Positions 29,945 to 55,690 of a stretch of DNA of 64,000 bases are shown piece by piece. Under the pieces are notes generated by a model. That model was not told where the DNA came from, did no database searches, and saw nothing but the letters and a program-made list of their open reading frames with translations. A program made the translations under genes and the position numbers. Source of the stretch: Asterella californica (taxonomy: Eukaryota; Streptophyta; Marchantiopsida; Marchantiales; Aytoniaceae); NCBI GenBank assembly GCA_036924285.1, contig JAYKYS010000007.1, positions 8,494,001-8,558,000 of the forward strand, in the 5' to 3' direction. Position 1 is the stretch's first letter; each line of letters opens with the position of its first letter.

Positions 29945-30215
29945 ACCATGCCATGTGCGTACTCATCGCCACACAACATACATCTCTATTCGATCAAACA
30001 ATACATAAACACAATAGACATATAATGTCATACACATACACAAGTGTACACAATAATCTTCTATTCATCCATATTGAAATGCCCATCAGCAACACAAAGA
30101 TCACTCTAGTAAAGCCAAATGCACTATGCGCATAAGATAATCAAGATTATCATAACTCGACTCACCTACCATAGTCAAGAGCTTGAAGGTTCAACTCGAA
30201 AGAAGTGAGCAGTTC
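29945..30215 (-). repeat. Decayed LTR fragment of the methyltransferase-Gypsy family
   Basis: On the minus strand the order is GAGTTGAACCTTCAAGCTC, GGATTTGGCT-like, then TACACTTGTGTATGTGTATG. These match, in order, the 3' half of the LTR at 53894-54176 and the block that follows it at 54178-54287. It abuts the decayed methyltransferase at 30215, so an internal deletion joined mid-methyltransferase to mid-LTR. Confidence 0.6.
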
Positions 30216-31385: not shown

Positions 31386-31389
31386 TCCT

Positions 31390-32325: not shown

Positions 32326-32339
32326 TTGCCCATTTAGTA

Positions 32340-33300: not shown

Positions 33301-33304
33301 CTAA

Positions 33305-35647: not shown

Positions 35648-35699
35648 GCACCTACTATGAGCTGAAGGCTCAGTTGTTCCCGAGTGCCCACAGTCTAGC

Positions 35700-37700
35700 T
35701 TCCACTCTCAGAAGACGAAACTAGTCTTCCAGAAGACAGCTACTCCGTCTTCCGGGATTCTAACAGTGCTTCCTAGATAGCTCTCGTCTTCCGAGCTATA
35801 TCTAAACAATCCTATCTAAGCAAGGCCTCGCATGGATTACCAAGAAGACAACCCACCTTGCATTACATCCTACTTCCTATCAGAAGATACAAGATATGCG
35901 AGAAGTAGAGTATGAGAAAGGTTCAGAAGATGGTTGCGGGCTCCTGCGGTGACAGTGGTCTCTGGGAAGACACTTGGGACAGCTTCCGATTCAATGTCGT
36001 TCTCGAAAGACCTCCCGAAGTCAGACTTCCCTTCACTGGTCTCACCTGTCTTCTTCTTCCGACGCGCAATCTATCCTCACAACAGACTCAAGACATGTGC
36101 ACTCTGTTCTTCTGACTTCTCACCTCTCATACGCACTCAGAAGAAGTTTGCTGCATGATGGGAAGACATGACCCTCGACCATTCTCTCCGGATTCTGCCA
36201 GCAATACTTCTCACAACTCTCTTCTAAGTTCCGGAAGAAGAAGGAACGGCTGCTATGGGTCGGACAGAAGAGACCCGAAATGGACCCTCACGTCTTCTCG
36301 CTCATTTTGCCAGCCTTTCAGTCTTCTAGTCTCTCTAGGAAGATGTGGAGTTGAGAAGCTTGGAAGACCGGGAGGCACAGGCCTAGTTCCCGAGTTCCAA
36401 CTTCTCGAAATAACACAACAACTCACCACACCACTCAAGCTTCGTACCAAGTCGCTCTAAACACAAAAGCAAAGCAAATCCACTCTTGATACGAATTGTG
36501 TTCAGTCGACTTCCGAAGACAGTCTTCCGAAGATGTCTTCCGAAGACAGTCAAGTTCAAGAAGCGTCTTCCGAAGATGTTCTCACCTTTCGAATCATCTT
36601 CTGTTCCAAGTTTCGTGGATAGAGAGGTATGGGGGTAAGGAAATTGATAGTTGGGGTCTCCAATTTGAGAGCTAGGAGTAGGGAAGTTCGAATTGAGCTC
36701 GGGAAGAAGCAAGGAGATGTCTCGACAGAAATTGGACAGCGCTTCCGCGCCCAATGTCTCAATAGAAAGAATGGGGGGGGGATAATCGATCAGGCTGCCT
36801 GCACACAATCAAGGAAGCGCTGGGAGTACCAAGAAAAGGCGAGAAGAAGTGGGAGGGGAAAAGAACAGGGGGAAGAACCTCTACAGTCTTCTTCGGTTCC
36901 CCGAGTTATCTTCGACCTCCGCGCGCTTCTGGCTCTTGTCTTAGCTTCCAATGCGACTCCACACAACTGCGCCTGCTGTCAATTTCGGTCCACACCTCGA
37001 TTCCACCTCTGCTTCTACTCGCCACTCTTCACTGTCAGCTTCTCGGAAGCTCTACAGAAACGCCTTCGCTTTCTCTGCTGCTTGTGCTCCCGCAATTCGA
37101 TCTCACCCTTCGACTAGCTGCCAACTTACTCTCTCCTACCTCGATGTCTTACTCGATTTCTCTCTCAATGCTAGCTCGAAGTTCACTCTCTCAATCGATC
37201 TTCTTCAGGCGCACTGTGCTGCGAGAAGTTGGAAGGTGGCTAATGTGCTTCCTCACGCATCTTCCCCGCAGATTAGGGGTTCTCGTCCTTGGTGTCTTCC
37301 TGACCTACCTACCTATTCGGTGCGCTCCAGTAGGTACACCTACTGTCTTACCCGAAAACTCGTGGTTGATCCTTCGCGGTTGCTGTCTTCTGGAAGATAG
37401 GTATCTTCCGCCGTCTTCCCATCTTCCGCCGTCTTCTCATCTTCTGAAGACGCAACTGAGAAGATGATCTTCCGAAGACGGTCGTCTTCTGAAGAAGTCA
37501 ACTTCTTATTACAAACAGCTCTTAAGATCATCTTCTTGTTAAGGAAGACGTAACCTTAAGTAACAACGCTTCTTCAGTTATACAAACAAGTCATTATCCT
37601 TAAAAATTTCAAAAATTCGTGCATCCTGTAATTTGTGGGCACCACATACGCCCACCCTCACATGTTTGCGTCCACGCAAACATAAGTGGTTCCTGCACTT
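35700..37700. other. GAAGAC-rich non-coding spacer
   Basis: The plus strand is C/T-rich, and overlapping open frames on both strands (60 to 162 codons) have no motif. TCTTCCGAAGA occurs at 36523-36533, 36536-36546 and 36566-36576, and further clusters lie at 37380-37500. It is probably retroelement leader or LTR sequence. Confidence 0.45.
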
Positions 37701-37704
37701 CTGT

Positions 37705-38345
37705 TTACGTCCAATACTTCTTGATGCGCCACCCATTAACACGAGTGGTCATCAGTGTACCGTCCAACTCTTCCAACTGCAAAGAGCCATTGTCGAAGAC
37801 CTCTAAGACACGGTAAGGTCCCATCCAGCGAAGATGAAGTTTCCCAGAGAACTTAATATGACGGTTGTCGTAGAGAAGTACCAAGTCTCCGTCCACAACA
37901 GTCACCTTCCTCAACTTGCTATCGTAGTTTACCTTACGTTGCGCTTGCACCTCGTATGTCTTCTCCAAAGCTGCATTCCTGTCTTCTTCAAACTCTACGA
38001 AGTTCAGAAGACGCTGCTCCTGGCTCTCTTCTTCTCCCATGCGTTCGGATATGGCTAACCGGTATGTTGGGACCTCTAACTCAATGGGCACAATGGGCGT
38101 CATGCCGTAAGTTAGGTAGAAAGGCGTCTTCTGGGTAGTGACTTTAGGTGAAATTCTGAAAGCCCACAACACAGATGGCAGTTTCGTGTCCCAGTCATAC
38201 GCATGGTTAACAGTTACCTTGTTCAGGATGTTACACAGAAGACCGTTCGACTTCTCCGTCAGCCCATTCGCTTTCGGGTTGTATGGCGTCGTCTTCCGAT
38301 GCTTAATCCTGAAGTATTGGATCAGGAGGGAGATAGTCTCATTTA
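37705..38345 (-). pseudogene. Ty3/Gypsy integrase, 3' part
   Basis: The minus strand reads TTPYNPKANGLTEKSNGLL, the integrase block carrying the third catalytic acidic residue (Glu). It continues without a stop through PSVLWAFRISPKVTTQKTPF and LTYGMTPIVPIELEVPTYRL to the C-terminal LRWMGPYRVLEVFDNGSLQL beta-rich domain, ending VNGWRIKKYW. This is a well-kept frame of about 210 codons. It is cut at about 38350, exactly where a copy of a gag fragment of another family begins. There is no chromodomain after the C-terminal domain. The family differs from the methyltransferase element (different C-terminal sequence). Confidence 0.85.
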
Positions 38346-38351
38346 AGAAAT

Positions 38352-38465
38352 GAATCTCAAGGAGGTTGAGGTGGTCGAGCTAGAGATAGAGGTCTATGAC
38401 TTGATAGAGGACATATCGGTTATACTCCTAGCATTACCTCTGATGCTGCTATGACGATTCGGATT
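38352..38465 (+). repeat. Duplicate of 31546-31653
   Basis: CTCAAGG(G/A)GGTTGAGGTGG and the next 90 or so bases are the same at both places, with one difference seen. The sequence is a decayed piece of gag from the methyltransferase-Gypsy family (compare 47671-47780). The two copies bracket the GAAGAC-rich element with the coiled-coil ORF and integrase fragment. Confidence 0.8.
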
Positions 38466-38469
38466 ATGA

Positions 38470-39178
38470 ATATGAATGATATCGACATATGAATGATATC
38501 GACTTGTTGTTGACCAGAGAACAAAAGCAATGGCTTTTGCTGACTATGCCTCCAAACGCTCATTGGGTTTGTGGATGTGCACTCTGATCTCATGAACCAT
38601 GTTGTTGTTGGACCTGCTGCCTTTGAGAAGAGGTAGATGCATCTTGCGCTACATCTCTGCTAAACGCAACAGTCACCTTCCTCTCCTCTACCATATTGAG
38701 TTCTATCCACTCAGTCAAATACAGCCAACGTGAGTGACTTCGCTTGTAACAGAGTCGCATCTTTGGCTCTCTATCGCAACTCTCAATCTAATATCTCATA
38801 TCAGAACTAAAACTACCTATGTCTTCGTCACACCTTGCGTGACATTGATCAACCATCTCATGCGAGTGTAGGTCTCGCATAGATTGTCTCTAATCTTCCA
38901 CTTGAACTTTTACAGACTCCTCAACTTGTCGATCTGCACACTTTGATGGTTCTTCTGTAAACACTAGAAGAATCGGACCACATGGTTAAACATGGTATAT
39001 CCGTGACATTACCACCTCCTCCACTAATACTGATAACTCTCATCGCAGTAGAACTCGATGATGTAACACCTCTTGAAATTTAATCAATAATGATAGAAAC
39101 ATAGTTGGGAGACCAATGTTGTCTCCACAACTCAATCTCCACATCGTAATCCGCCTAAACTCATGGTAGTCATCCACA
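38470..39178 (-). pseudogene. Decayed gag of the methyltransferase-Gypsy family
   Basis: On the minus strand, DNA at 39160-39060 matches 46770-46860 of the better element (TTGAGTTGTGGAGACAACAT box). 38960-38830 matches 47020-47130, including the CTCGCATGAG(A/G)(C/T)GGTTGATCA box. 38700-38500 matches the spacer before the zinc knuckles. Stops are frequent. It is directly preceded on this strand by leader repeat R1. Confidence 0.7.
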
Positions 39179-41095: not shown

Positions 41096-44000
41096 AGCCT
41101 CATTTTTAGTCCCATGAACGTCTTTGGAGCGATAATGATAAACATCGGAATAGATTTTCAGATAGAAGACGGTCGACGACACGACATCCACCTCCTCTAA
41201 ACCTATGCATCCTTCGGTATGCACCAGAGATACCACCCAATGAGTGGATCGACACGTACATCTTCTTGTCATCCTACTTCTCATCGTAGACAACCTCATC
41301 TTCAAGCTCTTTTGCATAATTCTCATTCTCAAACCGAAACTCTGTCAAGATATTTGCTAGATCGATCTCCTCATCTCTCTTTTTTAAAATCTTGACACGT
41401 TTACTTGCCATTGGTATCTTCAAGCTCGTTTCGTCCAGCTCTTGCAGGACGTAAGTTGCGTTGTAATGAACTTTCTTCACCTCACACGGATCAAACCATC
41501 ACTTGGAAAACTTCCGGAGTGCACTATGCTGGTTGTCTAGACTGTTGTCATAGACTAACACCCAATCATCTTCCTTGATTTCTCTAGGTCTCAAACGATG
41601 TCGCTGATCAAATATGACCTTGTTCTTCAACCGTGCTTCTCGCAGCCTATCCAAAGCAGCTTGGATATCCTCAAGTCTTCTCTCTAACTGTCTAATTCGA
41701 ATAGCAAGAATCTCTTCCCTAGTCAGATTGTCTTTCCAAGATAACACACTCCATGTTAGAAGGTGTTCTTGAATCGGCATGATAGGTTTCTGACCTGTGA
41801 TGAGTTCCACTGGTATGTAACCTATCATCGAGCTGTGCGTCATTTGATTTGTCGATAATGCAAATGATAAGAGTCGAGGTCACTCGCGCACCCTTCCGTT
41901 GCAGGCCTTCATCAAAGCCTTCACAATGAGCGGAGACCACGTTCACTCTTGGTATTCCCTTCGGGGTTGTAAGCAGTTGTCAATGACAACCTCACCCCAC
42001 ACTTTGCAAAGAATTCACGAGCCTCATGTGCATCTAACTCTCCCCGATCCGTAGTAATATTTCCCACACATCCATATCGACAAACAATCTCTTCCAAGAG
42101 AAATCTACATACCCCTTTAGTTGTCTTTGTCCAAAGCGCCCTACCCTCAACTTGATTTGAAAGATCTTCTCGAGCAAGTACCAAGTACCTCATCTACCAC
42201 AATCCAACTAGCATAGTCACCAAGTCTACAACCCATTTGAAGTGGATTGTCAACGGATAAGTCAGATGTAATCCATCTCGATGTCGGATGTTCGAGTACA
42301 TCTGACATGTCAAACAAGACTCCACAAAAGATACGACATTCTTGTACATATTTTTCCACCAATATTTCTCTTTCATCTTCGTAAAATCGGTCCAAATCCC
42401 TCGATGTCCAACCCAAAGACTCTCATGAAATGCCTTGAGCAACTTCTGCTGATCTTCTTTGTCGCAGATCACTCGTAGCGGTATCCACCTTTCTGCTTCG
42501 GTTGCTTCCAAAGAAATCCATCCTACAACATGAAGTTGTAGGCCTTCCTTCAAACTCTTCAAAACCTCTCATCCGTCCAACATGTTTGCTTAACCATCGT
42601 ACTAAGGTACCTCTCGATGTCAAACAAATCACCATCATACAACCCTTCAACAAACAACTCATCTTCTCTTCTTGTCTGTGCAATTGAATAAAACTTTGCA
42701 CTCACGTCGTCAATATCTTCAACCATCTCATCCTCCCCATCATATCGAGCTTGAGATAACATATCTACCATCGGATTATCCTTCCTTGTAATATGTCTAA
42801 AATCTGAGTTCAACGACTTGATATATGCGATTCATCGTAACATCGCAATATCAGGAGTTGAACAATTCACGATCTCTCTAACAACGACAAACAATCAGTT
42901 TCAACCACTAATGCAGCTCCACTCAAATACTCTTTCTCGATTTTCATGACTGAAACAATATCTCATAGTTCTCTCTTCACTTGCGGATATGCACGTTGAC
43001 GAGCATTTAACACCTTCGCTCCGAACCTAACAGCAAACATGTCTCCATCCTCATCATCTTGTTCTACTGTCCATCTGATTGCAACTGGACTTGTATCTAC
43101 AGTAAGAATCACCGGCCTAGCACCCTTGTAATCTATCCTTCCCAATATTGGAAGAAATGACAATAAGAACTTCTGCTTCCGTATAACATCAATATGCTCT
43201 TCCTCCCATATGAACTTGTGACCCTTACGCAACAACCCATATAATGGATCCACCACATGTGCATAATGAGAAATCCAAATGTGATAGAATACACAAGCAC
43301 TCGTAAACCTTCTTACTTCTGTCAACGAGTAGCAAATCTCCTTCATCCTCCCAATCGCATCCACTTTGTTCGGGTCAGGTTTCCGACCAAACGATCCACA
43401 CAAATGATCAACAATCAAGACTTCTCTAACCCCAAATGTAGACTTTGCACATGACAGCGTGAGATGAACTTCCTCAAGTCGAGATAAGATCTTCTCACAG
43501 TTTGTGATGTGATCGACAATGAATCGTCGACACCCCCTCTGATCTAATGCTTCATCCGTCTCATTCTCCACACATCCCTTGATGAGGATGTCATCCAAGA
43601 ATGACATCATCTTTTCAGGTATGAAGTCCTTTGAAACTCTATTCATCCCGTTCATCATGTGTGCTACCGAGTTGGTAGCTCCCTGTGGTAAGGTACACAT
43701 CCTAACCAACCCCAAAGGTGTCTCATTGTCGTGAAGCTTCTGCTCTCCTCCGCTAGTTGAAATTGATCATATATTGAGTAAAGATCACTCATTGAGTAAA
43801 TTGCTCTCCCTGCAAACGCTTCAGCAAACTCATTCATAATCAGTCCCACTCCAACATTTCTGATTGTTACTGCGTTCACCGGTTGCATGTCTTAGATGAA
43901 CCGCAGTGATCTATTCTTCTTAGGTATTGTAAACCATCTGCTCGAATGCGGTGCAAACGACGGCTCCAAGATCTTCATCTGCATCTTCTCCTTCAGCAAC

Positions 44001-44155: not shown

Positions 44156-44295
44156 CGATTACAAAAACAAGCACTCCAATACACCTTAGGTACACAGATA
44201 GATCTCTCAAGATTCAAATCACTTTATTTCAGTGTCGCTGCATCATCAATCTCTTCAACTGTAAAGAAAATCTCTCTCTCTTCCTCTCCTGCGTG

Positions 44296-44578
44296 TGTCA
44301 CGTCAATTTGATAACTCGGCTAGGTTGACCGAGTGCGAAGTGGCGGACCCCGGTAAGGCCGTTAGGGCAAGTTGGTGAGAGTGCCCACAAGGGGTATACT
44401 TCGCAGGTAGGGGCTTGGAGACCTCAGTTCTTCAAGTTGAGCCTTCAAGCTCCTGGCTATGATGGGTAGTCTTGAGAGTGAGATCTGGATTCTCTGCGAG
44501 CACAGAGTCGATTTGGCTCGATTGTAGTGATTGTCTAGTGCCTGTTGGCAGGTAGAGTGAGTACATACTTTGTTATCA
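44296..44578 (+). repeat. 5' LTR (283 bp)
   Basis: Begins TGTCACGTCAATTTG and ends TTTGTTATCA. It is the same length as the right-hand copy, with only a few differences (for example CGTCA(A/G)TTTG and GGC(C/A)TATGAT-type sites), so insertion was fairly recent. Homology to the right copy stops exactly at the TG and CA ends. Confidence 0.8.
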
Positions 44579-46537
44579 CTTGAAGAACTGAGATTGCAAG
44601 GCTTGGGATAGGGATTTCAGGTCGCAGATTGCTACCGATGGTATCTCCGGAGTTGGCAGATCGTTGGTATCTTCGATTTGCGGGTGCGCGCGTACGTGGA
44701 GTGGCTTATTTTGGTGTTGTGATCGATCGCTGTGTGTATGGATGTCGTCTGAACTTGTTCGCAGTCGATTTGGTGGTGAGGTAGTGCGGAAGCGATGCTG
44801 AAATTTCGGGGAATGTGTTGAAGTGACCATTTTCGGACTGAAGTGCGCATTTGGGCGTGGCAGACGAAATAGTCGACAATGTCAGGCCGACATGGGCTCG
44901 TTGGAAGCATGCTGGGAAGACGGTCTTAGTGCAGGAAGATTCATGAAGTTTGGTCGAGCCGTTTTTGAGTTATGAGAAGTCGAAATTTCTGGTGACGGAT
45001 TTTATGACGGGTTTTACGTCAGCAGAAGTGCGTCGGGGAGTGTCAGATTGGATTGGGTCGATAATTTTTGGATATGAGGAGTGCAGTAGGTGCACTCCGG
45101 GAAGACGATTCCAACGCAACCAAAATCGTTCGATTTGGTGAAGGATCGACGAAGTTACAAGCCGAAGAAGGTCGCAGGTTGGTCAAAATCTGACGTAAAT
45201 CCCGTCTGCGAGTTCCAAATTGGCTGATTTCGACAATTTGGTGCAATTTCGACCCTGAGTTGCTGTTTTGGGTGTTTTCTCGTCGTACTCGTCCTTCTTT
45301 ATGGTGTTTGGCCCGGGTACTCTTCTCCAAGCGGAGCGGAGAGTGAGCGGGAGTGTCGAGGTGTGGAGTTGCGTGTTAGGAGGCATTTAGAGGCTTCGAG
45401 GCTTCGAGGCTTCGAGGAGCAGAGGTGCGTGAGTGCGGAGGCGTGAGAGCGGAGTGCGAGAGTGCGGAGGCGGAGCCCGAGCCCGCCGCAAGCCAGCTTG
45501 CTGACGTGCGTGAGAGAGGTATCCAAGTTTCAGTTGTGTGGGAAGTGTAAAACCAGTAGGTCACCCATCCCAACACTATTTCTGGACTTGGACGCTTAAC
45601 TCTGTAGTCTCAACTTTGGCTGTACCACTAGGCCAATAGCTATTGGTGTCTTACAGGGATGCGTGCAAGTACTTAGGGGCTGGTTTAAGGTAGTAGGAGA
45701 CCTGCTCGTACGTTCCTAGAGGAGTGGTAGGGCGACCCCAGAGTACTGGGGGAAGCTGCTATTGTGGTAGTGTTTGCCTATACCGAAAAGACGCGTATGA
45801 AGGCAATTGGTAGCAGTTGTCTTGGATGAGCTAGTAGAGCTATCACGTTGATATTTTTGGAGCTACTAGAGGTATGGAGATCTAGTTAGTGACCTTAGGT
45901 ACAGGTTATATTAGTCGGTGATCATATATTGTGCATGTGATCACCGAAGAAGACCGGGTGGGGCTGGGTTTCTCTTTATGTGAATGTTTGAGTGTGGAGG
46001 GTTATCGTTTGGACTTCTTGTGGTTGGAATCCTTCCATATTCTGCTTCCTGTTTGTGCGCCGCGTTTGCTTGTGTTGGCGCTTGATTTCCAGAGTGAGTT
46101 CACTCTAGTGTGCTGCCAGTAGTGAGGCTTCAGTGATGACCAGTCAGACTACCTTTGTTTCTCTCACGGTGCAGTTGGAGTGACGACCAACAAACCGTGA
46201 GAGGCTGCTTATGGTGATGGCAGGTACAAGTTGCCCTTACCTTGACTGTCATAGTAGGGGATAGGTGAACTCAGTAGGAGCGGGGATAGGCAAGTTGTAG
46301 TTACGGTGGTGATGGGGATTTCGACATTCGGGTTAGAGAGTGTGTTCGCGAGATTCTATCACCACGGAGTTCTCGGGAGGTTCTTGTGAGGACTTCTCGG
46401 ATAGTGGGTATACACGGAGTGGGATGAAGTACCGACTACCTACACCATTGCAGTTGGTTGTTCCAAAGGACGAATCAGACGCAGACAATGCATTTTCTGC
46501 TGGTGAGGCTAGTGTCATCACATTGTTGTTGTGAGAC
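44579..46537 (+). other. Long 5' leader of the methyltransferase element
   Basis: About 2 kb between LTR and gag. No coding frame is supported. It contains three head-to-tail GAGGCTTCGAG units near 45388-45418, a G/C-rich GTGCGGAGGCG stretch to 45490, and the 5S-like segment annotated separately. Around 44945-45030 it shows faint similarity to R1 (a GAAATT...GTCAG...GTCAG pattern), which suggests that R1 is the leader of a diverged subfamily. I could not identify a tRNA primer-binding site. Confidence 0.55.
45535..45640 (-). ncRNA. 5S rRNA-like segment in the leader (degenerate)
   Basis: On the minus strand this reads GAGTTAAGCGTCCAAG, then ATAGTGTTGGGATGGGTGAC, then CTACTGG. In 5S rRNA the same order is GAAGTTAAGCG (A-box region) followed about 25 nt later by AGGATGGGTGACCTCCTGG (C-box region). 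Spacing and the GGATGGGTGACCT core match; the 5' third is poorly conserved. It is not an intact 5S gene. A 5S-derived promoter inside an LTR element is known from plant Cassandra TRIMs; here it lies in the leader and in antisense, which is different. Independent insertion of a 5S pseudogene or 5S-derived SINE is the alternative. Confidence 0.65.
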
Positions 46538-47819
46538 ATGGACGAGATCTATGGGGCCACGAAGGGACCTCGACGTTACTCGAGTACGGTGGGTACCATT
46601 GAGCTGGATGACTTCATCCAGGAGTTCGACAGTTGGTGCGATCTGCAACAGATGCGGAACCCACAGTTGTTCACACCTTTCATGACGTGGAAGGGTTTGT
46701 TTCAGCACTTGGAGGGACCGCCGATGGACGATTACCACGAGTTCAGACGAGACTACGGTGCTAAGATTGAGTTGTGGAGACAACATTGGTCTCCCAACTA
46801 CGTTTCTATCACTACTGGTGCAGTTTCGGGAGGCGTAGCACCTTCGAGGTCAGGTGCCAGTAGTAGTGGTACATCCGGGTGGCGGAGTCCCTACTACCAG
46901 CGGTGCGTCCACTTGTAGTGGAGCAGGTGGTAGTGCGAGCGGGATACCACCAGAGTTTAATCCTGTGGTTCAGTTCTTCCACTGTTTGAGAAAGAATTAT
47001 CAGGGTGTGCTGACCGACAAGTTGAAGAGTCTGCAGGAGTTCCAGCGGAAGACTGGAGAGAGCCTACGCGAGGCGTTTACTCGCATGAGGCGGTTGATCA
47101 GCGTTACTCAAGGAGTGACGGAAGCACAGGCAGTCCAGTTATGATATGAGATACTAGACCGGGAGCTGCGTAGGAGAGTCAGAGATGCCACTTTCCTTAG
47201 AGACACCGCTCCGACATTGACGGTTGTCTTTGGTTTGGCTGAGCGGATTGAGCTCAACATGATAGAAGAGAGGGTGGTGACTGCTGGGTTCAGCAGAGAC
47301 GCATCACATGGGACGACATCCTTTTCTCGAGGATCACAGGCTATGCAGTAACGAGATGGTGGTGGTGGTGGTGAAGATCGTGCTGAGCACTCACGATCCC
47401 ATGGAGGTGCTGGAGGATCTGGTGGGCAGAAGCTCATGCCGTCCTTCTCTAGTCAGCAGCAAGCAGGTCCTTGCTGGACGTGTGATGGTCCTCATCAGCA
47501 GAAGGATTGTCCACAAAGGAGAGGTAGTTATGAGACATCTGGGACGTCTCAAGCGGTGCCTAGGCAGTGTGAGCATTGCGGGCGACCAGGTCACAGTAGT
47601 GACCGTTGTTTTGATCTCCATCCGGAGCTACAGCACGGGAAGACTGATCGTGGACGAGGAGGAGGAGCTCAGGGAGGCCGTGGTGGTCGAGCTGGAGGTA
47701 GAGGTCCAGCACCTGGGAGAGGACCAGTTGGTCCACCGTCTGCTACGACGTCAGAAGCAAGTATGGCTATTCGGATTGAGCAGTTGGAGCAGAGGATAGC
47801 TAGTATGACTATGGCTTAG
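46538..47819 (+). pseudogene. gag: gag with two CCHC zinc knuckles
   Basis: The ATG at 46538 follows an in-frame stop and opens a capsid-like N-terminus (IELDDFIQEFDSWCDLQQM, MTWKGLFQHLEGPPMDDYHE). A frameshift between about 46860 and 46905 moves the frame. The second part has the retrotransposon gag core (FHCLRKNYQGVLTDKLKSL, GESLREAFTRMRRLI, YEILDRELRRRVRDATF). Then comes a Gly-rich linker and two knuckles: CWTCDGPHQQKDC and CEHCGRPGHSSDRC. A Gly-Arg-rich stretch follows, then a short heptad segment RIEQLEQRIASM. In-frame stops occur at 47142-47144 (TGA), 47348-47350 (TAA) and 47817-47819 (TAG). Gag would coat the RNA in virus-like particles. Confidence 0.85.
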
Positions 47820-48795
47820 CGGAGATCTGGTGGAACAGAAGCTTCCACGTCTTATGGAGGAGAAGGAGGTGACTTCGACTTCATGACTGGTGTGGCGCAG
47901 ATTGAGACATCTGTGGCAGTGACTCGAAGTGCAGTACGTATCTCTGAACCACGAGGTGCGTCAGTGGAGTTGGATCCACAACGCGGGGAGGCTGGTAGAC
48001 AGGCCAGACTTCCTCAATCATTCACGCTATCAGAGGCATTGAGGACCACTTCTATGGTTCCTAAACGGCCTACCGATGGTGCAGTGGAGTTGGAGACATC
48101 GACATCCAAGAGTGAGGATAATGCGAGTCAACCCTCGATGTCTGTGGATGCGACGTCGAATCCGATGTTGGGGGCGGCTACAGTAGTTCTGCGGACCCTA
48201 CTATTTTCAGCCACGGATATGAGGGCATTGGGAGTCAGCTTGGCTCCAATGTTCCAGTTGGCAGCCACGCTCAGTGAGAGCGAGGATGTGGTTACCTCTA
48301 GTGCTGAGGTGGTTCATCAAGAGGTGGTAGATGTGTCCATGGAATCGAAGATCAGGACAGCTACTAGTGGTACTTGGCAAGCGGCGACTGCCAGGCTAGA
48401 TCAGTTACCAGCTAGACCGGCAATTGACCGTGCTGGATTGGCACCAAGTGTGGTGTTGTTGGACAACAGAAGTGGTATCTTCTGTTTGGTGGCACCTTCA
48501 GGGAAGGTGTATCGACCGCAGAAAGTGTTGTTAGATTCTGGAGCCCAACCGTTGATGTTGGGGAAGGCGGCGTGTATCGGTTTGGATCTGAGGAAGTCCG
48601 AAGTGAAGAGATGTCCATTTCAGCTATAGACTTCTCTAGGGAGGTCAGGAGGTACCACTCTACACATGACACGCGAGTTGCTGACGGTGAGAGTTAGACC
48701 AGATCATCCCACGGATGGTTCCATGGTGAAGGCCAAGGCTATCGTTACGGCCGCGGAGTCTTATGATGTATTGGTTGGAGGTGCTGTATTGTACC
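47820..48795 (+). pseudogene. Aspartic protease region of pol
   Basis: Same frame as the knuckle part of gag after its TAG stop, so gag and protease were one ORF. A Ser/Thr/Glu-rich linker (47883-48450) leads to KVLLDSGAQPLMLGKAACIG, where Asp-Ser-Gly is the retropepsin active site. Further on YDVLVGGAVLY is the C-terminal flap/closing block. A TAG lies at 48627-48629 and a frameshift near 48790. A retropepsin dimer would cut the polyprotein, including around the methyltransferase. Confidence 0.8.
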
Positions 48796-49256
48796 TATGG
48801 GATTCGTGATCGACTATTGGGCGGAGACAGCATCTTACAGACCAGGTTGACAGTCCGGTGAGGGACGAGTGAGCCGCTTACCAGTGCGGTTCAGTACTAG
48901 AGTTGGGACAACGGAGCGTACATCTGAGACGATGGCATCCGTTGCAGGGTTCAGTTCGGTCATAACTTGACCGGGTGAGTTGTTAGAGGGCAATGTCCAT
49001 GCGGATGATACTCCAGTTTTTGAGGAGGTGGAGGACATGTTTATCATGTCTACATTAGTACCATCTGCTTTAGATGTTCCACTCTAGAGTTCGAGTGGAG
49101 AGTTGCAGCAGTATGCTGATCGGTTGGTGCAGCAGGCTTGGAGTGAAGCCTTTGTACCGCCAGTAGAGGAACATCGGGTTGTTCCTGTTACTCGTCCTGT
49201 GACCTTAACACCGTTGGATACGACTCCCATTTGCATGGCAGTATCCAAAAGAAGGT
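48796..49256 (+). pseudogene. Protease-methyltransferase linker
   Basis: In the frame shifted after 48790 the DNA encodes GFVIDYWAETASYRPG, then RVSRLPVRFSTRVGTTERTS, an acidic FEEVEDMFIMSTLVP, and QQYADRLVQQAWSEAFVPP. It has three stops (48848-48850 TGA, 48968-48970 TGA, 49085-49087 TAG). The decayed relative at 31385-31120 (minus) retains the same linker, so it is a conserved part of the element. A second frameshift at a GTGTGTGTG run near 49255 leads into the methyltransferase frame. Confidence 0.7.
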
Positions 49257-50456
49257 GTGTGTGTGCTGGAGCTATTTGGGGGGATCAGCACAGGTTTGGC
49301 TGCGGTATTGCAGGCAGGCATACAAGTACAGCGATACTTGTATGTGGAGAGAGATGAGATCGCAAGACGCGTCTCATTGCGTCACGTGGCACGTTTGGTG
49401 CAGAGATATCCTGAGTTGTTGTCTATATCAGCTGTTAGAGAATACCAGCAAGCATTATCGTCAGATATTTCGCTGCTGGGGGCACAAGATCTCACATTTG
49501 TTGGCACCATTCACTTGGTGATAGCGGGGTGGCCATGTCAAGGTCACACGCGTGCTGGGAGAGGTCAGGGTTTGCATGACCCACGATCTAGGATGTTTTG
49601 GGAGATGTTACAAATCTTACGACATCTCCAAATGCATCAGATGGATTCTCCGGCGTACATCTTGGAGAATGTTTCTTTGTTGGGTGATGCTCGTGCACAT
49701 ATGATGACGAGTGTGCACCATGTTCGGTCTTGGGTTGGACCAGCAGTGTTGTTGGATGCAGCGAGAGTAGGATCTCGTGCACATCGTCCACGGTTGTGGT
49801 GGACGAACTTGTTACCGAGAGAGGTGCTTAAGCGCGCACACGATGGAGTGAGACGATCAGCGCATCTCACGATTGATAGCATCTTGGATGCAGGACGACG
49901 ATCTCAAGTAGTGAGAGTCGTCGATAGGTCATCCATGGCAGTGGTGAACCTAGTGCGACGGCCCATGGTAGCATTACCCACTTTGGTAAGCTTTCCAGCG
50001 TCACATGCTTACAGAGATGGAGGACCTAGGTTTGTGTGGGATGCTCAATTACGGCAATTGGTGGAGCCCAATGCCGATGAGAGAGAGCGAACGATGGGTT
50101 TCACTACGGGTACGACGGCAGTAGCTTCGGTGTCAGAGGCTTCACGTCGTCAAGTGTTGGGTCAAGCAATGGACTTGAACTGCTTGACATGGATTGTTAG
50201 CCTTGGATTGGCTGAGCAGCGTCGGATGCGATCGACTGGTGTTACTGCTCGAGCACTCTTGAGCTCTTTGCCTACCGAGTCGGTGGAGGCAAAGGTTGGG
50301 GGCGAGGCACGTGGAGTTCGTCATCCTTGGACATCATGGGATGTCATAGGAGAGAGTGTGGAGCTTGCAGCTAGAACTGCAGAAGTTTTTCGCACAGTAG
50401 CGGTGGAGGTTGTTGGTGGTGAGCAGAAAGAAACTGCTCCAGAGGCTGCAAGATAG
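49257..50456 (+). CDS. Cytosine-C5 DNA methyltransferase domain of the retrotransposon polyprotein
   Basis: An uninterrupted 399-codon frame, opening with GTG because it is internal to a polyprotein. Motif I is VLELFGGISTG (residues 3-13, AdoMet binding), then YLYVERDE (27-34). Motif IV is IAGWPCQGHTRAG, with the catalytic Cys at residue 94 (49536-49538). GLHDPRSRMFWEMLQ follows, with motif VI YILENV (Glu137). Motif VIII is HRPRLWWTNL, and the C-terminal motif X-like block is RRQVLGQAMDLNCLTWI. All catalytic residues are present in the canonical order, so unlike the rest of the element this domain looks intact. It resembles DNMT3/DRM-type enzymes more than DNMT1 in size and in lacking large N-terminal domains, but the subfamily needs a tree. 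A TAG at 50454-50456 separates it from reverse transcriptase in the same frame. Likely role: methylating element or host DNA; target context cannot be read from sequence. Confidence 0.93.
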   Translation: MCVLELFGGISTGLAAVLQAGIQVQRYLYVERDEIARRVSLRHVARLVQRYPELLSISAVREYQQALSSDISLLGAQDLTFVGTIHLVIAGWPCQGHTRAGRGQGLHDPRSRMFWEMLQILRHLQMHQMDSPAYILENVSLLGDARAHMMTSVHHVRSWVGPAVLLDAARVGSRAHRPRLWWTNLLPREVLKRAHDGVRRSAHLTIDSILDAGRRSQVVRVVDRSSMAVVNLVRRPMVALPTLVSFPASHAYRDGGPRFVWDAQLRQLVEPNADERERTMGFTTGTTAVASVSEASRRQVLGQAMDLNCLTWIVSLGLAEQRRMRSTGVTARALLSSLPTESVEAKVGGEARGVRHPWTSWDVIGESVELAARTAEVFRTVAVEVVGGEQKETAPEAAR

Positions 50457-51980
50457 CAGTCAACGACTTCGTCTTCTACCTCTAGCATGGTGACAGAGGA
50501 TACTTGGGAGCCGGAGATCGGACCCAAGCTTATAGGAGAGGAGAGACGAAGAGTTCAGAGATTCCTGAAGAGCTACATGAATTGTTTTGCCTTTAGTATG
50601 AAGGATTTGGGTACCTTGAAGGGACCGGGTATACGGATCGACTTGGCTAATGACACACCAATCTTTCGACGTCCTTATAGGTACAGTGACATGGAGAGAA
50701 CCTTGATCCAGAGTAGGACTCAAGACTTGGTGGAAGCTGGGTTGGTGGAGATGTCGCATGGAGAATATGCATCTGCCACAGTTATGCCAGCAAAGAAGGA
50801 TATGTATGGCAACTACACGGATAAGCGTATGTGTGGAGACTACCGTCCTATCAATCGGCAGACGAAGTCCGATAAGTATGCCATGGCGACACCTGAGGAG
50901 ATCTTTGATGCAGTGGGGCATGTGAAGTTCTTCAGTACTTTGGATCTTCGAGCAGGGTATCATCAGTTGCCGGTGAGAGAGGAAGATAAACCCAAGACAA
51001 CATTCTGGGGGATTGACTCTCACGGCAAGGATTGTTTGTATCAGTGGCGGTTCTTATCATTTGGGTTGAAGAACGCCCCTGCTGAATTCCAAAGAGTGAT
51101 GGATAGGATCCTAGCAGGATTGGATTTTGTCAGATGCTATATTGACGACATCTTAGTCTATAGTGCTACAGTGGAGGAGCACGAGAGACACTTACGGGAT
51201 GTGTTCGAGCGGTTGAGAGCTCATGGGTTGAAGTTACACCCTGGAAAGTGCAACTTCTTCCAGGAGTTGGTAGAGTATCTGGGTCACACCATCTACCCAG
51301 GTGGGTTGGGTGTTCAACAAACGAAGGTCAAGGCCATTGCACGTATTCCACGCCCCACAGATGTGAGTCGAGTTCGAGCATTTGTTGGTTTGGTGAACTT
51401 TATCGTCGATACATGAAAGGATTTAGTGCAATTGCGAAGCCATTGACCAAGCTGATGAAGGTGGACCAGGAGTGGCAATGGGGAGATGAGCAAGAGCGAG
51501 CTTTCGTGGAGCTCAAGGATAGGTTGACATCTGCTTCCATCTTGAGGAGACCCGTTAGGGGACGTCATTTCCAACTGCACACTGATTGGAGTATGTTGGG
51601 ACTTGGAGCAGTGTTGACTCAGCATGATGATGAGAAAAAGGAGTTTGTGGTGGCGTATGCCAGTTGCTCCAACTAGCATACGCCAGTCGGCGGAGGCGAG
51701 GTACAGTTCGTACGAGGGGGAGTGTTTAGCTGCAGTGTGGGCTGTTGCACATTTCCGATGTTATCTATTTGGGAACCCCTTTACTCTCATCACTGATCAC
51801 CAGCCGCTCAAGTGGTTGATGAAGTCCGACAAGCTTACAGGGAAGCTTGCACGATGGGCTCTGATCTTACAGGAGTATGACTTCCAGATAGTGCATAGAC
51901 CGGGAGTTGCAAACCTAGATGCTGATGGGTTGAGTCGTAACCCATGCACGAGTCAGCAAGATCAGACTGGGGCTCGATGA
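50457..51980 (+). pseudogene. Reverse transcriptase and RNase H
   Basis: Continues the methyltransferase frame after one TAG: an ATG at 50487 starts a 309-codon open part. Landmarks are FFSTLDLRAGYHQLPV (residue Asp153), FGLKNAPAEFQRVMD and FVRCYIDDILVYS (YxDD at 218-221), then LHPGKCNFFQELVEYLGHTI and the RVRAFVGL connection. A frameshift near 51405 and a compensating one near 51650 bracket MKGFSAIAKPLTKLMKVD and the RNase H start FQLHTDWSMLGLGAVLTQ. The frame resumes with RYSSYEGECLAAVWAV, LITDHQPLKWL and VANLDADGLSRNP, giving the RNase H Asp-Glu-Asp-Asp set. It ends at a TGA at 51978-51980. RT copies the RNA into cDNA; RNase H degrades the template. Confidence 0.9.
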
Positions 51981-53591
51981 CATGACGAGGTTGATGAGGA
52001 GATAGTGCCGGGGTGGCATGCATCTGCCTTTCTTTGTGTGTTGGCCATGAACTCTAGTATGGAGGACCAAGTCGTATCTTTCTCAAGTGAGAGAGTAGAT
52101 GACGAGTCTCCAGATCTTGAGGGTGGAGATGGTGTTCCAAACCAGCGAGATATCCATGACGATGAGACCGTGATGGAGTATCTACGTACTGACGTGGTGG
52201 TAGACACAGTAAGTGCCAAGGAGCGAGATTGTGTCCTTCAACGAGCGAAGAGATTTCGACGAGAAGGACGACATGTACTTCGAGTGTGGGATGATGGGAG
52301 AGTACGGATAGTGCCACACCCATCCTAGAGGGCACAGTTAGTACGACATGCTCATGAGGAGTTGGGACATTTTGGAATGAAGCGCACGCATAGCTTACTC
52401 CAAGGACAGTATTGGTGGCGTGGTATGCACGTCGATGTGCAAAAGTTTGTTGCACGATGTGTGGTTTGTGATCGAGTACGAGCATCGTTTAATGCTCCTA
52501 CTCCACAGTTACACCCCTTACCGATTATGGGGTTGGGTTATCGTTGGAGTTTAGATTTTGCGGGACCCTTACCGTTGACTGTACGTCACCATCGATATGT
52601 ATTGGTGATGGTGGAGCACTTTTCCAAGTGGATTGAGTTGGTGGCATTACCAGACAAGACGCGTGAAGGGACAACGTATGCATTCTTAGATCGAGTGTTG
52701 AGTCGTTTTGGAGCACCAGCTGAAGTGCTGACAGACCAAGGTACAGAGTTCCTCGGTGAGTTTCAGATCTTGTGTGATCAAGCGCTGATTGATCATCGAA
52801 CTACATCTCGAGATCATCCTGAGGCGGATGGTTTGGCGGAGAGGGTAGTTCAGACGGTGAAGAGAGGATTGCGTAAGTATGGCTTGCAGAAGGGCCACTT
52901 GGGAGACTGGGATGTGCAGTTACCATGGTTGGCTATGGGCTACCGTTTTAGCCGACAAGCGTCTTTGGCTTCCTTCTCACCGTATTTTCTATTATACGGT
53001 CGAGATCCAGATCGACCTTCGGCCATTCGTCGTGATTCTGCTGAGGTGCTGAACCTTGATGACCCGGATATGTGGGTGAGAGCATGTTCTCAACGAGCAG
53101 AGACATTTCGGAGAGTTATGCACATGGCTTTTGAGAATCTAGCGATTGCTCAACATAGAGACACGTTGCGATATGCAACTATCCGAGGAGGAGGTTATCG
53201 ACCATCGATTCGCAGGTTTCATCCTAGCGATTATATCTATCTACAGCAGACTGCACCGACGACGTTGGATGTGACCGCAAGACGCACTATTTTACGAGTG
53301 CGTGAGGTGTTACCTTCTGGAGTACTCATGTTAGAGGGCCGTGATGGTGTTGTTTGGAAGGACCATGTGCGTAATTGCGTGCCATGTCATCTTCCCAACA
53401 TCGATGGTACCGTTGACCCAAGCTTGACAGTTGTACGAGCAGGCTTGAGGTGTATGTTGTGTGGGTCTGCTGGTGGAGCAGCCCGTATGTTGGTGTGTGA
53501 TGGTTGTTCGAGAGGTTGGCACATGTCATGTTTGACTCCACCTCTCATTGTCATTCCTATTGGACGGTGGATTTGTCCTCGATGTATATAG
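51981..53591 (+). pseudogene. Integrase with C-terminal PHD finger
   Basis: Same frame after the TGA: an acidic linker runs to a TAG at 52326-52328, then an open stretch to 53591. The zinc-binding domain is HAHEELGHFGMKRTH... with CVVCDR (His-His-Cys-Cys). The core has DFAGP (Asp65 of the 409-codon part), LTDQGTEF (Asp125) and ADGLAERV (Glu160), the DDE triad. A beta-rich C-terminal domain follows (TILRVREVLPSGVLML). The last 47 residues (53448-53588) form C-x2-C-x11-C-x2-C-x4-H-x2-C-x14-C-x2-C with CDGCSRGWH and WICPRC, a canonical C4HC3 PHD finger. Many plant Gypsy integrases end in a chromodomain instead. A PHD reader could steer integration to histone-tail marks; that is inference. Confidence 0.9.
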
Positions 53592-53785
53592 TAGGGATAG
53601 CTGATTAGATCTTTGCGTTGTATGGATTGCAGACAGGCGACTAACGATGGGACAATGTAGCACCCGGCCTCCTGATCCTTGCACCCACGAAGGTGTATAT
53701 CACGTAGTTGAGATATGGAGCTATCTGGAGTTAGAGGGACCTAACCGCCAGTTAGAGGGACCTAACCGTCAGTTAGGGGAGCGAT
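53592..53785 (+). other. 3' untranslated part with a candidate polypurine tract
   Basis: After the integrase stop there is a triplicated (A/C)CTAACCG(C/T)CAGTTAG word around 53737-53779 and the purine run AGGGGAGCGA at about 53775-53784. This could serve as the plus-strand primer if the LTR began at 53786; see the note on the repeated block around the right LTR. Confidence 0.45.
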
Positions 53786-53893
53786 TGTGGTACACTTGTG
53801 TATGTGTATGACATCGTCCATGTGTTGTGTGTATGTGTGGTGTTCCTTTGACAGCGATGTATGTGGTGTAGCGATGTGTATGCGCACGACAGT
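53786..53893 (+). repeat. Block A, copy left of the 3' LTR
   Basis: TGTGGTACACTTGTGTATG and the next 85 or so bases recur almost identically at 54178-54287, on the other side of the LTR. The two copies differ by about two transitions and a small change before ACGACA. Confidence 0.85.
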
Positions 53894-54176
53894 TGTCACG
53901 TCAGTTTGATAACTCGGCTAGGTTGACCGAGTGCGAAGTGGCGGACCCCGGTAAGGCCGTTAGGTCAAGTTGGTGAGAGTGCCCACAAGGGGTATACTTC
54001 GCAGGTAGGGGCTTGGAGACCTCAGTTCTTCAAGTTGAGCCTTCAAGCTCCTGGCTATGGTGGGTAGTCTTGAGAGTGAGATCTGGATTCTCTGCGAGCA
54101 CAGAGTGGATTTGGCTCGATTGTAGTGATTGTCTAGTGCTTGTTGGCAGGTAGAGTGAGTACATACCTTGTTATCA
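53894..54176 (+). repeat. 3' LTR (283 bp)
   Basis: TGTCACGTCAGTTTG ... CTTGTTATCA, the right-hand partner of 44296-44578. Landmarks shared with other fragments in the window are AACTCGGCTAGGTTGACCG and CAAGTTGAGCCTTCAAGCTC. Confidence 0.8.
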
Positions 54177-54177
54177 T

Positions 54178-54287
54178 TGTGGTACACTTGTGTATGTGTA
54201 TGACATCGTTCATGTGTTATGTGTATGTGTGGTGTTCCTTTGACAGCGATGTATGTGGTGTAGCGATGTGTATGCGAGACGACACGT
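54178..54287 (+). repeat. Block A, copy right of the 3' LTR
   Basis: Repeats 53786-53893 directly after the CA end of the LTR. The decayed fragment at 29945-30215 also has this block directly after the LTR, so an LTR-then-A order is not unique to this site. Confidence 0.85.
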
Positions 54288-54299
54288 GTCTTTCTCCTC

Positions 54300-55690
54300 C
54301 GTCAATCAGTTCTCAACCAAAAGTCTACCAAGTACGTCTCAATCCAAACCTAATAGTGAAATTCGGACCCCTGAATCTTATTCCTCTCTTTGCCCCAACT
54401 GAAACTCTCAGAAATTTGATCCAGCGTCGATCAAAAGTCCTATGTAGATTTTCAAACGATCTCTCTCAATAAAACTGTCTCCTGAGAGTAATTTCTCCTC
54501 ATAACAGTTTATTAGACAATGTCCAAGCTTAAAACTCCTGCCCCTCTCCCTACGATGATCTCCCAATTCAATTTGTCAGCAATTTGATCTTTCCTCCAGC
54601 CTCTTAGCTTCTCCTGTGTCCTCAACCCCTAATCCCTAATCCTCCTCCTTCCGCCTCCGCTCTCTCGTTTCTCATAAAATTTCTCAGAAAAATGTCAGCT
54701 TCCGCTGTAATCTTCCGCTTCAGCTTCCACTGTAATCTTCCGCTTCCGCTCTCTAAGAAACATTTCTCAGAAAAGTGTCCGCTTCAGCTTCCGCTATAAT
54801 CTTTCGCTTCCGCTCTCTAAGAAACATTTCTCAGAAAAATATCCGCTTCCACTTCAGTTTTAAGGCCCCAGCTAAGCTGCTCTCCTGCTGTCCTTATGCG
54901 TACATAATAATCAGCAAAAGTTTCTCGTGCCCTCGATGTCATCTTGATGCCACCCTGAATATACTACAAGCCATCCAATGTAGGTCGAAGCTCCAACACT
55001 TATGAGGCTGCCCCACAGGGCTTACAACCTCCTCATATGCGCACCAGATATCTCCCATAGTATATTCAAGATGGCATGCGGAGGCTTAGGTCAAGAAGTC
55101 CACGATTAAGAGAGATATCGGTCTCCCGCTCTTAGATATGCAAGACGTGGCTGCATATCCAACATAGACTTCCTTCTAGGAGGTCAACATACCGGAATAA
55201 GAACTAGAGGCCAGGGGGGATTGATCCTAAGACCACTTCCCTCCTAGGCAGGCGCCATATCACAGGGATGGCCTTTGGTTCCGTTCAAAACTGTTATACT
55301 TCCTTTAGATATGCTTTTGCTAAGAAGTTTTCTTGTAAAGTCTTGACTAACCTTCTCTACGCTAACTTCTGCATACAACTCTGTTTTTTACAAATAAGGA
55401 GTCAAAACTATAGTACTTGTGAACACCTACACACTCACGCTATCAGATTCTGAGTTCGAGTCACGAGGCAGAATCGACGGATTTCCCTCTTTCACACATT
55501 TCTCAGTCTAAAACTCGTGCTAACTATTACTTAAAACACTTTTTGTCAAGACTGGAAGCATGAAGTCGCTCTCCTCGTCGAGCTCTGTATTCTGATGCCC
55601 TTCGACCTCTTTCAGGGTGATATTTCAGTCTAAGCTAGGGGGCAGCTTGTCAAGCATGGCCCCAGCTTAGCTGCTGCTCAGCTTGATAAG
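54300..55690. other. Unassigned segment with CTTCCGCT repeats
   Basis: TTCCGCT(T/C)CAGCTTCCGCT-type words repeat between 54690 and 54850, with two copies of CTCTCTAAGAAACATTTCTC. Short open frames (61 to 110 codons, plus strand) have no recognised domain. Near 55640-55710 the word CAGCTTAGCTGC and its variants repeat. It is probably more retroelement debris. Confidence 0.4.

Follow-up and report, generated by a model that had tools for sequence, protein, structure and literature searches.

Why would a Ty3/Gypsy retrotransposon encode a cytosine methyltransferase (MTase), and by which route does such an element replicate when its repeats depart from the ordinary long terminal repeat (LTR) arrangement? 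Both questions are raised by an element of the liverwort Asterella californica, located in a 64,000-nt stretch of contig JAYKYS010000007.1 (hereafter the window, to which all coordinates refer). The reading that we consider probable is that of a Ty3/Gypsy element that has captured a DNMT3-type MTase and bears split repeats, and whose linear DNA would carry LTRs of the composition B-A, close into a two-LTR circle and be cut by integrase inside an LTR.

Element boundaries and coding region

Direct-repeat comparison of the window gives the order A1-coding-B1-A2-B2 from 44296 to 54284, with CGTG on either side of these outer ends:

44292..44295, no strand: target-site duplication CGTG, 5' side (repeated at 54285-54288)
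44296..44578, plus strand: repeat A1, at the 5' terminus (TGTCACG...), 98% identical to 53894-54176
53785..53891, plus strand: repeat B1, 96% identical to B2
53892..53893, plus strand: GT spacer of the B1|A2 junction, where integrase would cut the circle (the 10 other copies read have GC here)
53894..54176, plus strand: repeat A2, direct-repeat match to A1
54177..54284, plus strand: repeat B2, forming the actual 3' terminus (...ACGACA), match to B1; length variation occurs at the A2|B2 joint
54285..54288, no strand: target-site duplication CGTG, 3' side (equal to 44292-44295)

The initial annotation described a Gypsy element bounded by 283-bp TG...CA repeats. The repeats are real, A1 and A2 being 283-nt direct repeats that differ at 6 of 283 places in the window copy, but they are not the boundaries of the element, since the duplications flank the start of A1 and the end of B2, a position that also rules out A alone as the LTR. 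Outer ends TGTC...GACA with 4-bp target-site duplications were found in the window and in all nine sampled copies that could be scored, and the order A1...B1-A2-B2, with a B of about 108 nt, recurs in nine of the ten fetched copies (the tenth is without B2); these ten were chosen among the best-scoring MTases, so that young copies are over-represented. An ordinary LTR retrotransposon spanning 44296-54176, with an accidental second B, would account for the resemblance of A1 and A2 by themselves to TG...CA LTRs. Given the recurrence of B2 and the placement of the duplications, this reading is refuted for the copies examined, and we give it practically no credence. With respect to the hallmarks of Ty3/Gypsy elements, the outer ends do not consist of identical LTRs (A1 at the start, B2 at the end), the 4-bp duplications of the window and of the nine scorable copies fall within the usual 4-6 bp, and Pfam recovers the order reverse transcriptase (RT)-RNase H-integrase with an rve core, encoded in four other copies by one 1041-aa frame. 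Target-site duplications of 4 bp are the product expected of a DDE integrase.

Between the repeats, the window encodes the following:

46538..47819, plus strand: gag, including a zinc knuckle; its frames are interrupted in the window copy (zf-CCHC 0.0071, Retrotrans_gag 0.027, both below the curated cut-off)
47820..48629, plus strand: protease region (LLDSGAQPLMLG; motif seen by eye, Pfam silent)
49209..50453, plus strand: DNMT3-type cytosine-C5 MTase (Pfam PF00145, DNA_methylase, 2.1e-8)
50454..50462, plus strand: TAG stop and CAGTCA, fitting the UAG-CARYYA type I readthrough signal (30 of 30 copies)
50457..51416, plus strand: RT, in frame with the MTase (RVT_1, 3e-31)
51164..51980, plus strand: RNase H, in two frames in the window copy (RT_RNaseH 5e-23, RT_RNaseH_2 7e-17)
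52329..53450, plus strand: DDE integrase (H2C2 1.9e-16, rve 1.7e-13)
53451..53585, plus strand: PHD finger at the integrase C-terminus (Pfam PHD, 9e-11)

That a Gypsy element carries its own cytosine MTase is thus borne out by the DNA_methylase match (2.1e-8), with RT next in the same frame and RNase H and integrase further downstream. The order protease-MTase-RT holds as well, its protease part resting on the DSGA motif, which we take to mark a protease; Pfam returned no protease match in the window or in copy L033, where the frame is uninterrupted, and no gag match in the latter. The window copy is damaged by stops and frame changes in gag-protease and pol. Gag is open in a single frame through to the MTase in the same number of other copies, four, as have the 1041-aa frame after the stop. 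Neither a tyrosine recombinase (phage-integrase Pfam; window pieces and the leader, gag-MTase and pol frames of L033/L034) nor a chromodomain (Pfam-scanned frames of the window and L033/L034) was detected.

The PHD finger, missing from the earlier list of domains, is present in copy L034 too (Pfam 6.8e-11). Its nearest solved relatives include CHD4, KDM5B, PHF21A and ATXR5, and we hypothesize that it probably reads histone H3 at the target.

A constrained DNMT3-type methyltransferase and its relatives

Among C5 MTases, DNMT3 is the family closest to the element enzyme by sequence and by fold, DNMT3A being the best match to PDB profiles (8e-22) and in Foldseek (9.5e-20). Its motifs follow the linear order I-IV-VI-VIII-X; the host's own DRMs are permuted, and the DRM arrangement, with VI-X ahead of I-V, is not that of the element MTase. 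In the window, the frame is open from upstream of motif I to the terminal UAG. A search of the 517-Mb genome gave 4659 first-look candidates, and the 101 loci scored share 92-100% identity with the MTase of the window, whose presence in the element is therefore not due to chance.

Judging from substitution patterns, the MTase is under constraint. Across 30 copies (435 pairs), pN/pS is 0.235, and 0.156 in the half with motifs I-VIII, against 0.76 and 2.08 in shifted frames. The 30 copies have the best MTase protein scores, a choice that biases pN of the MTase downwards; RT, which played no part in picking them, gives 0.092. Most catalytic-motif columns are conserved across 17 aligned relatives, P0021 departing from the PCQ motif with Y instead of C. 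None of 20 sampled junction sites shows a direct protease-RT join, the arrangement named at the outset as counter-evidence (a weak test): at least three quarters of the MTase lies in the expected place and orientation at 11 of them, a rearranged piece at one, and other DNA instead of the MTase at eight. At junction site L105, 71 MTase residues are in the orientation of the junction and 225 in the opposite one.

The stop codon between MTase and RT cannot be put down to decay, since TAG-CAGTCA is identical in all 30 copies, that of the window among them. UAG-CARYYA is the type I readthrough motif (PMC5382211), and the sequence offers both this conserved context and, in the four copies mentioned, the open 1041-aa frame downstream. 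Since the MTase lies ahead of the conserved UAG-CAGUCA stop, it is probably produced together with Gag. A leaky stop behind the MTase predicts supply of the enzyme at the level of Gag, a concrete clue to its place of action.

In the MTase tree, which has four viral MTases as outgroup and contains no plant MET1 or CMT row, a 32-row group (support 98/96) unites DNMT3, DRM, seven metagenome rows and a clade of 18 retrotransposon rows (100/100), nested in the DNMT3/DRM group and apart from bacterial MTases. The retrotransposon clade is separate from the four host-type DNMT3 rows sampled, and the element MTase stands apart from the DNMT3 and DRM genes of this genome, contrary to the clustering with a host gene that the initial annotation had envisaged as a refutation. 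Because these 18 rows form one well supported clade apart from host-type DNMT3s, the tree points to an old rather than a recent capture. Relatives of the retrotransposon type comprise, besides metagenome sources and this genome, proteins named Marchantia, Riccia, Calypogeia, Sphagnum and Closterium; retrotransposon-borne DNMT3s now extend from one charophyte and dinoflagellates to land-plant-named proteins and Closterium. No row named K. nitens occurs among the 111 proteins of one search or the best 120 of 168 of another. The nearest named matches of the host DNMT3 are from Diphasiastrum (47%), Sphagnum magellanicum (44%) and Marchantia (46% over 47% of the query). MTases on viral contigs (50 loci, 24-43% identity) look like ordinary phage C5 MTases and were set aside. 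The protein P0237, named DNMT1 by its source, groups with Clostridia.

Likely self-priming, repeat joints and a candidate circular intermediate

Four sites next to or within the repeats bear on replication:

44395..44399, plus strand: possible TATA-like box (TATAC), about 28 nt upstream of the self-priming segment (a weak match, judged by eye)
44423..44436, plus strand: A segment complementary to the primer-binding site, putative transcript start and self-primer (14-nt perfect complement, A position 128)
44579..44592, plus strand: primer-binding site adjoining A1, complement of 44423-44436
53776..53784, plus strand: polypurine tract GGGGAGCGA ahead of B1 (role presumed from its sequence)

In all 11 copies, a perfect self-complement of 11-14 nt starts at the first base after A1 and pairs inside A, and two subfamilies differ by matching changes on both sides. 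Among 5000 shuffles, none reached 13 nt and 54 reached 9 nt. Ordinary tRNA priming was rejected, as no TGG-type site is seen by eye after A1, where the self-complementarity lies instead. Minus-strand synthesis is thus likely self-primed, as judged from complementarity. Elements of the Tf1/sushi type and the Tcn1 and TAR plant lineages similarly have a primer site complementary to their own 5' segment and not to a tRNA (PMC6317226); the present element differs from them in having split repeats, an MTase and a PHD finger, and no chromodomain match. The TATAC of the window is TAAAC in the four other copies inspected.

Within copies, A1 and A2 differ at 0-1 of 293 nt (nine copies), against a mean of 6.4 between copies, and derived bases are common to both repeats of a copy in 36 of 39 cases for A (36 vs 3) and 14 of 15 for B (14 vs 1). 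This sharing is LTR-like, from which we infer a linear element with B-A LTRs. At canonical joints, the last base of A2 directly precedes the primer site and the first base of B2 directly follows the polypurine tract, to within one shared A. Among 100 A2|B2 joints listed (527 in the genome), 20 are length variants, five of which carry 10-22 nt of filler; one of these fillers, from a copy whose 1370-aa frame is open, occurs nowhere else in the genome. Among 100 listed B1|A2 junctions (873 matches genome-wide), 99 share one length and one is a variant (Fisher p = 8e-6 for 100 listed joints each). The joints listed stem from three contigs.

Could these joints simply be copied? In templated split repeats of the PAT/Ngaro or DIRS style, an RNA would run from A1 into B2, the internal B1-A2 would serve as template to restore the ends, and A2|B2 would be passed on unchanged. 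The repeat order is that of DIRS elements and, per a figure legend, of the Klebsormidium Gypsy element (PMC5890265); 79 of the 100 listed A2|B2 joints agree exactly, and two spellings (an added T in nine, another in two) cover 11 of the 20 variants, for which inheritance could also account. We nevertheless hold this explanation to be unlikely, in view of the DDE integrase and 4-bp duplications, the near identity of both A and B within copies that differ from one another, the position of A2|B2 at the edges of primer site and polypurine tract, and a length that varies at A2|B2 and not at B1|A2.

The cycle that we propose would instead pass through a circle. First, transcription would begin inside A1, and translation would yield Gag-protease-MTase, to which readthrough of the UAG-CAGUCA that all 30 copies share would add RT-RNase H-integrase-PHD. 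Second, the 5' end of the RNA, as in Tf1, would fold onto the complementary primer site behind A1 and prime minus-strand DNA, the polypurine tract ahead of B presumably starting plus-strand synthesis; the product, as within-copy sequence sharing suggests, would be an ordinary linear element with B-A as its LTR. Third, the linear ends would join, sometimes imprecisely, into a two-LTR circle whose joint would be the A2|B2 of integrated copies. Finally, integrase would cut the palindrome GACA-GC-TGTC at B|A in one LTR, and insertion with a 4-bp duplication would give A-coding-B-A-B, in keeping with the observed ends and duplications. For this class of element, closing a circle and then opening it at a different place would be an unusual way into the genome. 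End-joined linear concatemers, serving as integrase substrate in place of circles, would leave the same integrated structure, and sequence cannot tell the two apart; intramolecular joining being the usual fate of unintegrated retroviral DNA, we rate concatemers as quite improbable.

The circular reading has a precedent in foamy virus: in vitro, its recombinant integrase cuts two-LTR circles at their palindromic joint, and the report concerned urges that such circles be reassessed as functional intermediates (PMC1180852). The likeness would lie in an integrase that cleaves a palindrome containing both att ends and loses two bases. In foamy virus (PMC1180852), this palindrome marks the junction of the two LTRs; in the present element, it would fall within an LTR, and the ends are permuted. 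Whether a circular precursor serves a retroviral-type integrase is an old question, to which one genome here contributes hundreds of natural joints. The broader proposition, that a DDE-integrase retrotransposon uses the two-LTR circle as its normal substrate, cut at an LTR-internal palindrome, and that captured DNA MTases go with elements having circular double-stranded DNA, strikes us as evenly balanced. If true, every integrated copy would preserve, like a fossil, the joint of the circle from which it arose, and this family, KnitGypsy and SymbioDIRS, all A-coding-B-A-B, would have an enzyme that protects or marks the circle; SymbioLINE-Dnmt is an exception to this rule.

Site of action and known systems

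Presumably made in Gag-like amounts, the MTase may, as our tentative first choice, methylate circular or linear double-stranded DNA of the element prior to integration. Another possible target, which we find somewhat doubtful, lies elsewhere, whether or not the circle step is right: the enzyme could act with the PHD finger on host chromatin at the insertion site, or have a non-catalytic role in the particle. Conservation of the PHD finger in the distant relatives P0078, P0123 and P0125 speaks for this, as does the fact that the product of the element MTase cannot be distinguished from host methylation; the greater constraint on the catalytic-motif half and the conservation of most catalytic columns among the 17 relatives (P0021 apart) speak against it. 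Integrated copies display a C-to-T excess in CG, CHG and CHH (25 copies, excluding L012, L017 and L030 for many misaligned changes, as well as the window copy and L002), which suggests that they are methylated in all three contexts and thus seem not to escape host-type methylation. Self-methylation as a means to hide the element or regulate its copies, as first proposed, is a hypothesis.

The statement of the initial annotation that DNMT capture was known from Klebsormidium and dinoflagellates is confirmed in print (PMC5890265). KnitGypsy-Dnmt3 of Klebsormidium nitens (de Mendoza et al. 2018) shares with the present element the Gypsy domain set, a Dnmt3 within the polyprotein, purifying selection on the DNMT and DIRS-like A-coding-B-A-B repeats (PMC5890265). 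Compared with its published description, the liverwort element is found in a different lineage, where it has hundreds of junction matches, and it shows 4-bp duplications at the ends of the split repeats, likely self-priming, a variable A2|B2, a UAG-CARYYA stop after the MTase and a PHD finger; in the main text of that report, the terms "target site", "circular", "readthrough" and "PHD" do not appear, and TSD appears once, for a LINE. The Klebsormidium MTase domain gave no activity in yeast, a result that the authors call inconclusive, and SymbioDIRS-Dnmt3 of dinoflagellates was shown to perform de novo CG methylation there (PMC5890265). The latter likewise combines a Dnmt3 in Pol with A-coding-B-A-B repeats, but has a tyrosine recombinase where the present element has a DDE integrase (PMC5890265). 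The same split direct repeats occur in the PAT/Ngaro and DIRS-like tyrosine recombinase retrotransposons, from which the present element is set apart by its DDE integrase, its target-site duplications and the lack of a tyrosine recombinase match in the scanned frames.

Among the titles and abstract openings found, none describes a DDE-integrase Gypsy element with split repeats, and our literature search found no paper on a DNMT3 MTase domain in a liverwort or bryophyte Gypsy retrotransposon. What is new here comprises the land-plant relatives, the duplications, the likely self-priming, the joint evidence, the putatively leaky stop and the PHD finger. Another report places some DNMT3s in LTR Copia and DIRS elements (PMC12344493), citing the 2018 paper, which says Gypsy.

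Repeat anatomy and the variable joint

Capture of a methyltransferase (MTase) by a Gypsy element is of a known kind and is not the main news, a Klebsormidium Gypsy with Dnmt3 having been described by de Mendoza et al. (2018; PMC5890265), where a figure legend gives it DIRS-like repeats. The stronger news is the combination of a DDE integrase, split repeats, duplications, a primer site complementary to the element itself and a joint of variable length in the element at 44296-54284, ordered A1-coding-B1-A2-B2. Repeat comparison, frame reading and Pfam bore out all the positions that the initial annotation had assigned to the repeats, to the frame of the MTase and to the Gypsy domains. The search covered the 516.7-Mb assembly (773 contigs; the window is C627:8494001-8558000), from which 10 further copies were examined, each as two pieces. 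A1 and B1-A2 were present in all of them and B2 in nine; in these nine and in the window copy, 4-bp duplications flank A1 and B2 on the outside. The joint between B1 and A2 (B1|A2) reads ACGACA-GC-TGTCACG in the 10 further copies, with GT for GC in the window copy; when the spacer is GC, the joint contains the palindrome GACAGCTGTC.

Within copies A1 is almost identical to A2 and B1 to B2, whereas copies differ from each other: among nine copies, derived bases common to both repeats count 36 vs 3 for A and 14 vs 1 for B. The window copy, which is older, has 6 differences between A1 and A2 over 283 places. Immediately 3' of A1, 11-14 bases form the perfect complement of a stretch within A in 11/11 copies, and the pairing segments have changed on both sides between subfamilies. 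About 28 nt upstream of the stretch within A, a tentative promoter motif reads TATAC in the window copy and TAAAC in four other copies. A polypurine tract stands directly 5' of B1. Repeat sharing, self-complement and polypurine tract fit a standard LTR cycle, probably self-primed, in which the LTR would be B-A.

From the repeat anatomy and the joints we infer a circle. A linear product with a B-A LTR would be joined end to end and then cut at B|A, yielding the integrated A-coding-B-A-B form, so that A2|B2 would be the joint formed at closing. A2|B2 is also the joint that varies: it has 527 matches across the genome, and the first 100 listed, located on contigs C1, C2 and C11, comprise 79 canonical joints, one with a base change and 20 length variants (nine with one spelling, two with another and nine single, five of the single ones with 10-22 nt of filler). 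B1|A2 shows one length variant in the first 100 listed of 873 matches (Fisher p = 8e-6 for the comparison, in which some copies contribute to both lists and either pattern requires exact flanks). One filler of 22 nt, which lies in a copy whose 1370-aa frame is open, has a single genomic occurrence; the start of B has 2022 exact matches.

Coding frames and the stop between MTase and reverse transcriptase

Both gag-protease (PR) and pol of the window copy are broken by several stops and frame changes. In four other copies, gag-PR-MTase forms a single upstream frame starting near MDEIYGATKG (L031, L033, L035 and L045), separated by one stop from a downstream frame of 1041 aa encoding reverse transcriptase (RT), RNase H, integrase and PHD (L032, L034, L036 and L046). 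An open frame of ~1370 aa running through the MTase was reported for many copies in the MTase genome search. At the MTase/RT boundary, TAG is followed by CAGTCA in 30/30 copies, the window copy among them. This context fits UAG-CARYYA, the type I readthrough motif described for plant RNA viruses (PMC5382211), and marks a putative leaky stop. As the stop lies between MTase and RT, the MTase is on the Gag side of it. Among gene models, P0113 of Marchantia, a gag-PR-MTase protein of 1248 aa, and P0002 of Calypogeia likewise terminate after the MTase; other Marchantia models, e.g., P0117, continue from MTase into RT.

MTase placement was sampled at every fifth of 100 B1|A2 sites among the matches listed. 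Two of these 20 sites were already in the MTase genome-search list, and the remaining 18 were fetched. In nine, 311-409 of the 415 residues of the MTase lie at the distance and in the orientation expected, L106 among them lacking the C-terminal part; another, L105, has 71 residues in the expected placement and 225 in opposite orientation; eight have no MTase, its place being taken by DNA of no relation, by pol pieces that are shifted or by other elements. Protease joined to RT without MTase was found at none of the 20 sampled sites. At two sampled sites, L111 and L113, parts of a different element occur (71% alike), which has a frame resembling an integrase.

Origin, constraint and distribution of the MTase

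The MTase motifs run in linear order from I to X, and DNMT3A and DNMT3B are the top structural relatives of the modeled protein (pLDDT 75.7; residues 346-415 below 50). In a 39-row tree, whose phage outgroup is not monophyletic and several of whose rows have odd composition, 18 retroelement MTases form one clade (support 100/100), a separate one (100/99) unites four DNMT3 rows, from this genome, Diphasiastrum, Sphagnum and one transcriptome, and two permuted host DRM rows fall outside both; the whole DNMT3/DRM-like group has support of 98/96. The host genome has an apparently intron-containing DNMT3 gene at L101 3778-5156 and three DRM-type (permuted) gene pieces at L102, L103 and L104.

Across 30 copies (435 pairs), pN/pS of the MTase is 0.235, these copies being the top protein scores of the MTase genome search, a choice that depresses MTase pN. 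The half with motifs I-VIII gives 0.156 vs 0.41 for the remaining half, RT gives 0.092 (301 pairs), and shifted MTase frames give 0.76 and 2.08. Any role of the element MTase is a hypothesis. Among 25 copies, 193 of 277 single-copy changes are C-to-T or G-to-A, with per-site rates of 0.094 in CG, 0.151 in CHG and 0.068 in CHH, and of 0.019 for A-to-G or T-to-C; the stretch counted is coding, so selection may shape the context rates. This pattern suggests that integrated copies carry host-type methylation in all contexts, and the rates do not reveal the action of the element MTase.

Two protein searches (111 proteins in one, and the best 120 of 168 in the other, many without organism name) placed relatives in Marchantia polymorpha, M. 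paleacea, Riccia sorocarpa and Calypogeia fissa, in Sphagnum fallax, troendelagicum, jensenii and tenellum, and in Closterium sp. NIES-53. Among distant relatives, the MTase follows RNase H in P0131 and precedes integrase and PHD in P0123 and P0125, so its position in the polyprotein varies among branches, whereas a PHD finger recurs. P0123 additionally has a G-patch domain.

Neighboring features in the window

Features around the element
29954-39176, minus strand: older relative, rearranged; one piece, at 31757-32301, is on the plus strand
33305-35707, minus strand: three long open frames in a row (G+C 0.54 at 34001-36000)
41918-43766, minus strand: different Gypsy element that has RNase H and an RT match at 7e-8
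54714-54841: two tandem copies of a 64-nt unit, just outside the element

Pieces of gag, of the protease region, of the MTase and of both A and B remain in the older relative, interspersed with other DNA; its MTase is at ~71% DNA identity and its protein pieces are at 41-68%. None of the three open frames at 33305-35707 has a Pfam match above the cut-off. MTase is absent from the pieces seen of the different Gypsy element, whose integrase is ~25% identical to that of the studied element. In the older relative, the A and B pieces are likewise ordered A then B.
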